Source: Gaiella occulta (GTDB taxonomy: Bacteria; Actinomycetota; Thermoleophilia; Gaiellales; Gaiellaceae). From it: 64,000 nucleotides of DNA. This document shows positions 44,207 through 48,913 of the stretch, piece by piece. The stretch is from positions 62,001 to 126,000 of the forward strand of contig NZ_QQZY01000006.1 of the NCBI RefSeq assembly GCF_003351045.1, given 5' to 3'. The position numbers and the translations under genes are program-made. How positions within the stretch are numbered: position 1 is the first letter of the stretch; every line of letters starts with the position of its first letter. The notes under the pieces were generated by a model. The model made no database searches and was not told the origin of the DNA. It was given only the letters and a program-made list of their open reading frames with translations.

Positions 44207-47200
44207 CTATTTGACCGCGGCCTCGCCCAGCAGCGCCTTCGCCTCGGCGAGGAAGTCGGAGTCGCACTGCACGCGGTACTCGGGGCCGAGCGCGAGCGTC
44301 TTCGCGCCGAGCGAGGTCTCGAGCGCCACGTAGACGGGCGATTCGCCCGGGTAGTCCTTCACGAGGCGTGCGAGCTCCTGGATGACGCCGGCCGGCGCCT
44401 GCCGCGCGTCGAGGCGGAACCGCACCTCGCGCCGCTCCGGCACGGCCTCGAACGCCGCCAGTTCCATGGCGATCAGCTTCGTCTCGCCCTGCTGCTTGTG
44501 GTCGACGCGCCCCTTGACCACGAGGATGCGGTCGCTGACGCACAGCTCCCGCGCAGTCGCATAGGTGGTCGAGAACACCACCGCCTCCGCAGAGCCGGTC
44601 GGGTCGTCGAGCGTGAGAAAGACCATCGGCTCGCCCTTCTTCGTCATCAGCTGCTTCACCGACGAGACGATGCCGCCGACCGTCACCACCTCGCCGTCGC
44701 GGCGGCGCTCGAGCTCGGCGAGCGTGGCGTCCGTCTTGCGGCGCAGCTGCTCGCGCACCGCGTGCAAGGGGTGCTCCGACACGTAGAGGCCGAGCGTCTC
44801 CTTCTCGAGCCTGAGCAGCTCCGCCTTCTCGAACTCGCCCGCCGCGATCGGCGGATGGTGCCGATGCGTCTCCGTCGCGGCCGCGACGGCGCCGAAGTCG
44901 CTGTCGAAGATCGACGCCTGACCGGCGAGGCGGTCGGCGGCGAGCTTCTGCCCGTAGGCGAGCGCCTGCTCGAGCGCGGCGAGCATCCCCATCCGCGAAG
45001 CGCCTGTCGAGTCGAGCGCGCCGCACTTGACGAGCGACTCGAGCGCGCGCTTGTTGACGACCTGCGGGTCGACGCGCTCGGTGAACTCCCAGATCGACCC
45101 GAAGCGACCGCCCGCCTCGCGCGCCGCGACGATCGCGCGCGCGGCGCTGTCGCCGACGTTCTTGACGGCGTTGAGGCCGAAGCGGATCTTGCCGTCGACG
45201 ACGGCGAAGTCGGTGCCCGACTCGTTCACGTCGGGCGGCAGCACCTCGATGCCCATCTCCTCGCACGCGTTCACGTACAGCGGCACGCGATCCTTCGTGC
45301 TCATCACCGATGAGATGAGCGCGGCCATGTACTCGCGCGGATGGTTGGCGCGCAGCCAGGCGGTGCGGTAGGCGATCAGCGCGTAGCAGGCGGCGTGCGA
45401 TTTGTTGAAGGAGTAGTCCTGCGCCTTCTCCATGTCGTCCCACAGCCCCTTCGCGGTTCCGGGGGCCACCCCGTTGGCGGCGCAGCCGTCGAGGAACTTC
45501 TGCTTCAGCGACGCCATCAGCGCGTGGATCTTCTTGCCGATCGCCTTGCGCAGATCGTCGGCCTCGGCCGGGCTGAAGCCGGCGAGCGCCTTCGCGATCT
45601 CCATGTACTGCTCCTGGTATATACAATTGTGTACGATGATGCCGTTGGCCACGAAGTTGTGGATGCCGCCGACGGTGATGTCGTAGACGCGCTCCTCGCC
45701 GGCCGGCTCGATCGAGACGATCTCCTGCCAGCACACGCGGATCGCACGCTCCGCTCGTGGAAGCTCGATGCGGTCGATCGCCTCTGCCACCACGCGCGCA
45801 CCGATGCGCTGCCGGCCGCTGTGGAAGTGCCGTCGCTCGAGGCCCGCGAGCCGCGCCGTACCTCGAACGGAGAGTCGCCCGCCGCGCGTGCGATCGACCT
45901 CGGACAGCGGGGCACCGTCGGTGGCCTCGAGAATCTCCGCCAACACCTGTCGGCGGTCGAGCGTCAAGCCGCGGTCAGCGGCGCAGGCCCTCACATTGCG
46001 CTTCCAGGTGACCATGAACGGCTGAACGAGCTCCGCAAAGCGCTGCGCCCCGTCGAGCGTCACCTGATATGCGATTGCCCCGTCACCGTACGGGGCGGCA
46101 GAGATCGATGCCCTGATACCCAGCCTGAGGAGCAGCGCCTGGACGTCCGAGGCGAGGGTCGGCGAAATGGTCTTGTACGTCACGGCTCTCGATCCGACGT
46201 GCCCGTCGCAATCCCATAGTGCGGCGAGAAACCGGCCGATCTCCTCGTCCGCGAGCTCGAACACCTCTTCGGGCACGAGCTTCTGCGCGCTCGTCGGCCC
46301 CCTGCGCCCACCACGCCCCGGGTCGTCGCCGGCTTTCCAGCGAAGGCCGATGCTGCGGAGCCAATGCTCGAGCGACGACGGCTCGTGATAGCGCTCGACC
46401 TTGTCGCGATCACGCGTGACGGTGATGCACACGACGCCTCTGTCCTTCTCGTAGCGGTTCAGCACGACATCATCGAAGCCCATCAGGCACGAGTGCTCGA
46501 AACTCGAGAGCAGCGATGCGTCCGACGAGTAGAACGACGTCAACGCAGTACCGACCGAGCCGTCCGCGATCACGTATGCGAGCGTTCGGTACCTGGCCCG
46601 CTCCCGTTCGCTCAACCACCGCCCGTCACCGCTGAGCGAGAGCTTCCGCGGAGTCGCGAGGCGCTCGCCTGGACGCAGCGCGCAAAGCTCCTGCCAGCCG
46701 GACTCGGTGAGGAACTGATGATCTGCCGTCGCACGGATCGATGCGCCGTTGCGCAGGCGCACCTCGTAGACGGGCCGTACACCGTTGTCGAACCAGGCGG
46801 TCACGTGGGAATGGGTCGGCGAGAGATCGTCGTCAACCCCTTGAACGAGCACGTCCTCGCTTCCCGAGAGCTCATCGATCCGAATGCGGCGACCGCTCGC
46901 GGCGTCGAACACGAGCGTGTCGCCCGTGAGGCACGTCCCGTACGTGCCTCCGGTGATCGGCTTCAGGCGCTCGTCCGGGAACGAGACCGGCTCGCGCCCG
47001 TGCTTTCTCGCCGCGTACGTCGGGATGTACGCCATCGGCCCGGGGCGATACAGCGCGACGAGGGCGATCAAGTCCTCGAACTCGGTTGGCCTCACCTGGC
47101 GCAGCGCCTCGCGCATGCCGGACGACTCGAACTGGAAGACGCCCGTCGACTCGCCGCGGGCGAGCATCTCGTACGTCTTGCGGTCGTCGAGCGGGATCTT

Positions 47201-48913
47201 CGTGATGTCGAGGCCGTCGCCGGCGAGGGCGACGGCGGTCTCGATCACGTCGAGGTTGCGCAGGCCGAGGAAGTCCATCTTCAGCAGGCCGAGCTGCTCG
47301 ACGGTGTTCATGGAGAACTGCGTCACGACCTCCGCGTCCGGACCCTTCTGCTGCAAGGGGATCGTCTCGATCAGCGGCTCGGCCCCGATGACGACGCCGG
47401 CCGCGTGGATCGAGTCGGCGCGGGTGAGCCCTTCGAGCGGCCGGGCCAGGTCGACGATCTCCTTCGCGGCGGGATCGCTGTCGTAGGCCTGCCGTAGCTC
47501 CGCGCCGGGCTTGAGCCCGTCCGCGAGCGTCTGCCCGGGGCCTTCGGGCACGAGCTTGGCGATGCGGTCGACGGTGCCGTACGGGATCTCGAGCACGCGG
47601 CCCGCGTCGCGGATGGCGGCGCGGGCGGCCATCGTCGAGAAGGTGATGATCTGCGCGACCCGGTCGCGTCCGTACTTCTCGGCGACGTAGGCGATCACGC
47701 GCTCGCGGCCCTCGACCGCGAAGTCGATGTCGATGTCGGGCATCGACTTGCGGCCGGGGTTGAGGAAGCGCTCGAACAGGAGGTCGTAGCGGATCGGGTC
47801 GATGTCGGTGATCTCGAGGCAGTAGGCGACGAGCGAGCCGGCCGCCGAGCCGCGGCCCGGGCCGACGGCGACGCCGTCGCGCTTCGCGAAGCCGATGAAG
47901 TCGGCGACGATGAGGAAGTAGTCGGCGAAGCCCATCTCGCGGATCGTCTTGAGCTCGAACTGCAGCCGCTCCGTCAGCTCGGGCGTCGTCTTGCCGTAGC
48001 GCTTGCGCAGCCCGGCCTCGCACAGCTCGACGAGATACTCGAAGGCGTCGCGGCCGCCGGGCGTCGGGAACTGCGGCAGCAGGATGCGCCCGAGCTCGAT
48101 CTCGACGTTGCAGCGCTCGGCGACCTCGAGCGTGCGCCGCATCGCGTCCTCGTGGCCGGGGAAGTCGAGCGCCATCTCCGCGGGCGTCTTGAAGTAGAAC
48201 TCGTTCGTCCCGAACTTCCAGTGGTTCGGGTTCTTGAGCGAGTCGCCCGACTGGATGCACAGCAGCGCCTCGTGCGCGTACGCGTCGGCGGCGTCGAGGT
48301 AGTGGACGTCGCCGGTGGCGACGAGCGGCAGCCCGCGCTTGGCGGCGAGCCCGGGCAGCGCCTGGAACACGGGCTGCTGCACGTCGAGCCGGGCGTTCTG
48401 CAGCTCGACGTAGACGTTGTCGCGGCCGAAGATCTGCTCGAGCCGGTCGAGCTCCATCTCGGCGTCGTTCATGCGCGACTCGGAGATCGCCCGCGAGACA
48501 CGTCCCGACAGGCAGCCGGAGAGCGCGATCAGCCCGGGGGCGTAGCGCTCGAGCAGCTCCCAGTCGACGCGCGGGCGGTAGTAGTAGCCCTCGAGGTAGC
48601 CGAGCGAGCAGAGCTTGATCAGGTTCGCGTAGCCGGCGTTCGACTCGGCGAGCAGGGTGAGGTGGGCATGGCCCTTGTGCTGCGCGCGCCGGTCGTCGAC
48701 GACGTACACCTCGCAGCCGAGGATCGGCTTCACGCCCTGCTTGCGGGCGGCCTTGTAGAGGTCGACGACGCCCGCGAGCGAGCCGTGGTCGGTGAGTGCG
48801 ACGGCGGGCATCTCGAGCCGCGCCGCCTTCTCGGCGAGCGCCGGCACCCGGCATGCCCCGTCGAGGATCGAGAACTCGGAGTGGACGTGCAGGTGGACGA
48901 ACGGGGCGCTCAT
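44207..48913 (-). CDS. dnaE: DNA polymerase III alpha subunit, interrupted in frame by an intein
   Basis: The replicative polymerase. The precursor is 1568 residues. Removing the intein (residues 661-1096) leaves 1132, the normal DnaE length. Order: PHP domain from HLHVHSEFSILDGA; polymerase palm with PDIDIDF at 392-398 (catalytic Asp393 and Asp395) and KMDFLG with Asp547; fingers interrupted between Thr660 and Cys1097 at TYGT/CIYQEQYM; then KSHAACYALIAYRTAW, HhH motifs and an OB fold (VVTVGGIVSSVKQLMTKKG). The well-known cyanobacterial split-intein site (before CFNK) is intact here as YSFNKSH. A longer frame upstream is shadow of the ABC gene. TAGAGT lies ten bases before the ATG. Confidence 0.97.
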   Translation of the reverse strand: MSAPFVHLHVHSEFSILDGACRVPALAEKAARLEMPAVALTDHGSLAGVVDLYKAARKQGVKPILGCEVYVVDDRRAQHKGHAHLTLLAESNAGYANLIKLCSLGYLEGYYYRPRVDWELLERYAPGLIALSGCLSGRVSRAISESRMNDAEMELDRLEQIFGRDNVYVELQNARLDVQQPVFQALPGLAAKRGLPLVATGDVHYLDAADAYAHEALLCIQSGDSLKNPNHWKFGTNEFYFKTPAEMALDFPGHEDAMRRTLEVAERCNVEIELGRILLPQFPTPGGRDAFEYLVELCEAGLRKRYGKTTPELTERLQFELKTIREMGFADYFLIVADFIGFAKRDGVAVGPGRGSAAGSLVAYCLEITDIDPIRYDLLFERFLNPGRKSMPDIDIDFAVEGRERVIAYVAEKYGRDRVAQIITFSTMAARAAIRDAGRVLEIPYGTVDRIAKLVPEGPGQTLADGLKPGAELRQAYDSDPAAKEIVDLARPLEGLTRADSIHAAGVVIGAEPLIETIPLQQKGPDAEVVTQFSMNTVEQLGLLKMDFLGLRNLDVIETAVALAGDGLDITKIPLDDRKTYEMLARGESTGVFQFESSGMREALRQVRPTEFEDLIALVALYRPGPMAYIPTYAARKHGREPVSFPDERLKPITGGTYGTCLTGDTLVFDAASGRRIRIDELSGSEDVLVQGVDDDLSPTHSHVTAWFDNGVRPVYEVRLRNGASIRATADHQFLTESGWQELCALRPGERLATPRKLSLSGDGRWLSERERARYRTLAYVIADGSVGTALTSFYSSDASLLSSFEHSCLMGFDDVVLNRYEKDRGVVCITVTRDRDKVERYHEPSSLEHWLRSIGLRWKAGDDPGRGGRRGPTSAQKLVPEEVFELADEEIGRFLAALWDCDGHVGSRAVTYKTISPTLASDVQALLLRLGIRASISAAPYGDGAIAYQVTLDGAQRFAELVQPFMVTWKRNVRACAADRGLTLDRRQVLAEILEATDGAPLSEVDRTRGGRLSVRGTARLAGLERRHFHSGRQRIGARVVAEAIDRIELPRAERAIRVCWQEIVSIEPAGEERVYDITVGGIHNFVANGIIVHNCIYQEQYMEIAKALAGFSPAEADDLRKAIGKKIHALMASLKQKFLDGCAANGVAPGTAKGLWDDMEKAQDYSFNKSHAACYALIAYRTAWLRANHPREYMAALISSVMSTKDRVPLYVNACEEMGIEVLPPDVNESGTDFAVVDGKIRFGLNAVKNVGDSAARAIVAAREAGGRFGSIWEFTERVDPQVVNKRALESLVKCGALDSTGASRMGMLAALEQALAYGQKLAADRLAGQASIFDSDFGAVAAATETHRHHPPIAAGEFEKAELLRLEKETLGLYVSEHPLHAVREQLRRKTDATLAELERRRDGEVVTVGGIVSSVKQLMTKKGEPMVFLTLDDPTGSAEAVVFSTTYATARELCVSDRILVVKGRVDHKQQGETKLIAMELAAFEAVPERREVRFRLDARQAPAGVIQELARLVKDYPGESPVYVALETSLGAKTLALGPEYRVQCDSDFLAEAKALLGEAAVK
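45626..46933 (-). mobile_element. DnaE intein with LAGLIDADG homing endonuclease
   Basis: A 436-residue protein-splicing element. It begins with Cys1 (CLTGDTLVFDA), has block B ATADHQFLT at 69-76 with Thr and His, ends ERVYDITVGGIHNFVANG then IIVHN with the terminal His-Asn pair, and is followed by Cys+1, so every splicing residue is present. Between the splicing halves are two LAGLIDADG motifs, TLAYVIADGSVG (117-128, Asp124) and LAALWDCDGHVG (236-247, Asp243), so the homing endonuclease looks intact. The joint with the C-extein is unusually AT-rich. Third positions in the intein look less GC-saturated than in the flanking exteins. Confidence 0.95.

Follow-up and report, generated by a model that had tools for sequence, protein, structure and literature searches.

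A class 1 intein with intact endonuclease motifs, probably splicing and mobile, in the replicative DNA polymerase of Gaiella occulta

The gene for the DNA polymerase III alpha subunit (dnaE) of Gaiella occulta carries a long in-frame insert, which raises the question of whether this insert is a complete intein that splices and moves and, if so, how it came to lie in a replicative polymerase. The window analyzed here is a stretch of 64,000 nucleotides from contig NZ_QQZY01000006.1. An earlier note, made from the sequence of this window, had placed 436 extra residues between Thr660 and Cys1097, at positions 45626–46933, and both the coordinates and the residue numbers matched exactly: the insert comprises DnaE residues 661–1096, exactly 436 codons, in frame and with neither stop nor frameshift (Table 1). 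The insertion point, TYGT/CIYQEQ, is located in the polymerase fingers, and its placement within the Pfam DNA_pol3_finger domain bore out the proposed interruption of the conserved TYG/xYQEQ fingers motif. The site homologous to that of the cyanobacterial split DnaE inteins is uninterrupted, as had also been claimed, although it reads YSFNK in this gene and not YCFNK as given there. In contrast to the cyanobacterial type, which is split between two genes at Y/CFNK, the insert is contiguous and occupies another site.

Table 1. Features of the interrupted dnaE gene of Gaiella occulta, in window positions.
Feature	Position	Strand	Basis or remark
dnaE, DNA polymerase III alpha subunit precursor, 1568 aa (1132 aa spliced); start Met at 48913, stop at 44207	44207..48913	-	Translation; NCBIfam and Pfam alpha models flank the insert on both sides
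N-extein, residues 1–660, ending ...GGTYGT	46934..48913	-	Translation
Codon -1, ACG (Thr)	46934..46936	-	Of 77 empty sites surveyed, 73 have Ile at -1
Intein, 436 aa, class 1 type (Cys1 ... His-Asn / Cys+1)	45626..46933	-	Family models, alignment
N-terminal splicing (HINT) segment, about residues 1–97, first residue Cys1	46643..46933	-	TIGR01445 intein_Nterm; PDB DnaB/RecA mini-inteins align over residues 2–101
Block B, TADH (Thr69, His72)	46718..46729	-	Invariant in same-site alignment (A1)
LAGLIDADG homing endonuclease domain, about residues 109–302	46028..46609	-	Pfam LAGLIDADG_3 over 232–302; model with two LAGLIDADG helices and beta saddles; Foldseek matches to I-DmoI and intein endonucleases
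First LAGLIDADG motif, block C, LAYVIADGSV (Asp124)	46553..46582	-	Alignment
Second LAGLIDADG motif, block E, LWDCDGHVG (Asp243)	46193..46219	-	Alignment
Extra helical segment past the endonuclease core, about residues 324–397	45743..45964	-	Helices in model; shared by every same-site relative
C-terminal splicing segment (blocks F and G), end His435-Asn436	45626..45733	-	TIGR01443 intein_Cterm
C-extein, starting Cys+1 IYQEQ, stop codon included	44207..45625	-	Translation
Codons +1/+2, TGT ATA	45620..45625	-	Neither TGT nor ATA occurs elsewhere in the dnaE exteins; may be a trace of co-conversion
YSFNK, uninterrupted; counterpart of the split DnaE intein site of cyanobacteria	45401..45415	-	Translation

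Family models recognized the insert, with Pfam matches to Intein_splicing (E 4e-23) and LAGLIDADG_3 (E 2e-14), over the cut-off, and NCBIfam matches to intein_Nterm (2.4e-9) and intein_Cterm (4.1e-8). In an alignment with 13 relatives inserted at the same site, the invariant columns included Cys1, Thr69, His72, Asp124, Asp243, Asp418, His435 and Asn436, so that the splicing residues listed in the earlier note (Cys1, block B Thr/His, His-Asn and Cys+1) were all accounted for. Cys1, Cys+1, a TxxH block B, the His-Asn end, a HINT fold and a precise in-frame insertion with uninterrupted homologues are those of a class 1 intein, and two motifs with the acidic residues D124 and D243 in a LAGLIDADG fold are those of a LAGLIDADG endonuclease. 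The endonuclease motifs had been described as intact, and both catalytic Asp residues are indeed conserved here; this is informative because three same-site relatives, all from genus g48, have an Asp-to-Glu change in block C.

An AlphaFold2 model of the 436-aa intein, built from the same-site alignment, had a mean pLDDT of 88.5 and a pTM of 0.88. Its best solved-structure matches in Foldseek were whole endonuclease-bearing inteins, namely TliVMA (TM 0.69/0.70, E 6e-25), PI-PfuI and PI-SceI; the splicing domains of RecA and DnaB and I-DmoI (TM-target about 0.7) came next. The model agreed with RecA and DnaB mini-inteins to about 1 Å over 95–98 columns, and the nearest solved splicing domains by sequence were those of cyanobacterial DnaB and mycobacterial RecA inteins. 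The extra helical segment that follows the endonuclease core possibly has a DNA-binding function. The description of the insert as a complete intein is thereby supported by family models, by alignment with 17 same-site relatives and by a confident structure model. That these residues are instead a normal DnaE insertion that is never removed is hardly credible: no support for this reading was found, and the intein domain models, the complete splicing motifs, the intein fold and the splitting of the near-invariant YQEQ fingers motif all argue against it.

The insert is a real class 1 intein that probably both splices and is mobile. The reading that we favor, with a probability of about 0.88, is that a large, endonuclease-bearing class 1 intein interrupts the replicative polymerase, splices out of it and homes into intein-free dnaE. 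The precursor would fold, Cys1 and Cys+1 would perform the N-S acyl shift and transesterification, and Asn436, aided by His residues, would cyclize, releasing a normal 1132-aa DnaE with TYGT-CIYQEQ rejoined. Cleavage of intein-free dnaE at the conserved fingers motif would fall to the nested LAGLIDADG domain, and repair from the intein allele would copy the intein together with a short stretch of flank; arrival in Gaiella occulta would have been by such homing. Conserved sites are known to be preferred by inteins (PMC2814812).

The Gaiella occulta genome (3.03 Mb, 34 contigs, 98% complete) was found to contain no second DnaE1, only a DnaE-like protein at C2:178299 that, at 36% identity, reads as an error-prone paralogue. 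Since there is no second DnaE1, the cell probably needs the spliced product, and the dependence of replication on splicing that had been proposed is a reasonable inference. Two further inteins were found in this genome, one in DnaB (RESG/C...HN/SIEQDADLVMF, L049:361-3189, frame residues 461–890) and one in a class II, NrdJ-like ribonucleotide reductase (GAISK/C...HN/TVNLPEQ, L050:1413-5501, minus strand), the latter with weak LAGLIDADG matches. The DnaB intein has a close copy in a genus-mate (G002), with others in G001 (a partial match), G007 and G035. The presence of inteins in two other DNA-synthesis genes lends something to the view that the DnaE insert is regulatory, its conditional splicing (for example redox- or metal-sensitive via the catalytic cysteines) tuning replication, and a precedent is given by the inhibition of DnaB splicing by zinc in mycobacteria (PMC7360933). 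The insert is, however, missing from every close relative, which argues against a conserved regulatory role and makes this view improbable.

The distribution of filled and empty sites bears directly on mobility. The earlier note had called for a comparison with empty sites in related genomes, and the dnaE site proved continuous in all 76 family relatives in which it could be read, including five in the host genus (the survey has 77 rows, these 76 and one order-mate). No other same-site intein was found among the 103 genomes of the host family searched, the remaining family matches being DnaB inteins. Of 396 genomes sampled evenly across the phylum, Gaiella occulta alone had the same-site DnaE intein; 399 genomes sampled from the class added three carriers (G542, G558 and G563), all from genus g48, which belongs to another family. 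Separately, the dnaE of G035 (L242) showed several broken frames with a stop, probably an assembly error.

An insert shared with no close relative, in an assembly of 34 contigs, might have been joined into dnaE from foreign DNA by faulty assembly or binning. This is very improbable, as the insert is in frame and residue-exact and lies internally in a contig of 204 kb, and the flanking dnaE sequence clusters with the host genus. A reading with somewhat more in its favor, although still unlikely, is that the intein splices with a dead or unused endonuclease, having come with a horizontally transferred dnaE fragment or from an ancestor. Activity is not readable from motifs alone, and decay does occur in the same-site family, as in the block C of g48, but both catalytic Asp residues are intact in Gaiella occulta. 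Descent from an ancestor would in addition need loss in all 76 surveyed relatives, the five of the same genus included, and replacement of the whole dnaE is contradicted by the dnaE tree, in which the Gaiella occulta exteins cluster with their genus.

A scan of genome collections found a DnaE intein at the identical point in 12 Bacteroidota loci (Hymenobacter, Saprospiraceae and kin) and in two Actinomycetota MAGs (L047 and L048), counts that are lower bounds because the scan requires exact short peptide matches; together with the window copy and the three g48 genomes, these make up a same-site set of 18 inteins. All 18 fell into one 100/100 clade in a 54-intein tree, with the site scored as a single change; both the DnaB inteins and the DnaE inteins at GFNK/SHST lay outside it. 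The latter, from family f26 of the Actinomycetota (L057, L058, L059, L061, L071 and L083), lie within a few residues of the site used by the split inteins of cyanobacteria and form a 100/100 clade of their own. Judged from this tree, the same-site DnaE inteins are a single-origin family spanning two phyla, with neither site nor element unique to Gaiella occulta. Among the papers searched, none dealt with DnaE inteins at the YQEQ site.

Within the same-site clade, the window intein branches off by itself close to the base of the main group (support values 83/80 and 84/74) and shares 39–46% identity with the other members, depending on the measure. On the evidence of the trees, the intein has a history separate from that of its dnaE exteins, and the donor is absent from the sample, as indicated by the lone branch and an identity of at most about 46%.

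Several candidate sources were rejected. The best phage and viral-contig relatives are only about 25–31% identical, with the exception of a DnaB fragment from a phage, 45% identical across one third of the query, and the best viral-contig matches are DnaB inteins; among viral DnaE proteins, some were seen to have other sites filled, but none had a same-site intein. Carriage on a plasmid was considered for pYJN5-1 of Paenarthrobacter sp. YJN-5, in which the dnaE intein (L246:1538-6997) is 30–31% identical and inserted one codon downstream; that insertion reads TYGVF/CFQES, with Phe at the usual +1 position. The DnaB and NrdJ inteins of the genome itself share 33% and 27% identity, respectively, with the DnaE intein and fall in other clades.

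Traces of arrival were looked for in the Gaiella occulta gene. The GC3 of the intein is 0.83 compared with 0.97 for the exteins. TGT accounts for one of the 15 Cys codons of the dnaE exteins and ATA for one of the 50 Ile codons, located at +1 and +2, respectively; both are also rare in the genes of the window (TGT 1/94, ATA 3/358, in an approximate gene set chosen by composition that may include a false frame). The lower GC3 and these two codons would fit a recent arrival, and the recent invasion proposed in the earlier note finds support in the lower GC3 together with the empty sites of the family. Because 61 of the 77 surveyed sites, most of the family, natively have Cys at +1, Cys+1 requires no co-conversion in Gaiella occulta. 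The +1/+2 codons and Thr at -1 fit co-conversion of a very short flank, which, being read after the fact, is suggestive only. A broad co-conversion tract was tested for and not found at window scale, the flank divergence around the site being ordinary (22% of 6-codon windows are equally high). Across the family, no general excess of AT-ending codons was seen at empty sites, most alleles having none.

A more pronounced footprint was observed in genus g48, in which three of 20 genomes carry the same-site intein and in which the filled alleles (L183, L184 and L185) were compared with L247–L261 and L277–L281. The +1 residue is Ala in all 15 readable empty alleles and Cys in all three filled ones; Ala is unable to act as a nucleophile at this position. 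Over dnaE, filled and empty alleles share 83–93% protein identity, falling to 60–76% in the two 25-codon windows touching the site, where empty alleles share 88–96% with each other. The filled-versus-empty divergence is 2–3 times that among empty alleles and is confined to about codons -18 to +18; codons -6 to -1 show 1.62 differences per codon between filled and empty alleles compared with 0.65 among empty ones. On a dnaE tree excluding the site, the three filled alleles are scattered, giving three changes, at least two of them forced by well-supported branches, and their intein DNA is 70–74% identical compared with about 90% for the N-extein. This pattern suggests that homing from divergent donors replaced the flanks and converted a native Ala+1 to Cys+1, probably in more than one event; one gain followed by several losses is a possible alternative. 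Flank co-conversion is a known process, having been described for haloarchaeal MCM inteins, in which a flanking residue was co-converted (Pro to Ser) during invasion (PMC10643990).

The intein-free dnaE of G020 (L016/L182) has a 12-codon patch exactly at the site (-4 to +8) in which 8 of 12 codons are AT-ending, within the lowest 0.2% of windows of the gene, and the site region is a divergence hot spot relative to the sister genome G062. This patch may have been left by the loss of an intein or by escape from cleavage. As a tentative generalization, the fingers-site family may home between bacterial lineages, replacing about 18 codons on each side and thereby entering alleles that are not splicing-competent (Ala+1 to Cys+1), with some intein-free lineages, such as G020, bearing scars of loss or escape.

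The Gaiella occulta intein adds a lone, deep lineage to the fingers-site DnaE intein family, in a genome with inteins in two further DNA-synthesis genes. The comparison alleles provide a natural record of homing in bacteria, at one gene and site, in which filled and empty copies share about 90% identity away from the site and the +1 nucleophile comes from a replaced tract with sharp boundaries. Laboratory constructs could thus test directly which flanks an intein of a replicative polymerase requires and how specifically it cleaves. Two points lift the case slightly above routine: the isolation of this lineage in a replicative polymerase, and the clear footprints in the flanks of the comparison alleles.

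Among known systems, the closest are the TYGx/CxYQE inteins of Bacteroidota (Hymenobacter, Saprospiraceae), which resemble the window copy in site, domain layout, both LAGLIDADG Asp residues, sequence (41–46% identity) and membership of the 100/100 clade, whereas the window copy has extra loops (436 compared with 417–421 aa), a lone deep branch and a host of another phylum. The inteins of the two Actinomycetota MAGs and of g48 share the site and the clade, but those of g48 differ in their Asp-to-Glu change in block C and in hosts that natively have Ala+1. Actinobacterial DnaB inteins, including that of Gaiella occulta itself, are also class 1 and LAGLIDADG-bearing, share about 33% identity and align end to end through the intein region of NCBIfam PRK07773; they differ in host gene, in site (RESG/C...N/SIEQDAD) and in forming a separate clade. 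The cyanobacterial split DnaE inteins (Ssp, Npu) and the f26 inteins at GFNK/SHST have the DnaE host and the HINT fold in common with the window copy but occupy a different site; those of cyanobacteria are split and lack an endonuclease. PI-SceI, PI-PfuI and TliVMA, although found in other host proteins and only 12–19% identical, have the same two-domain architecture as the Gaiella occulta intein.
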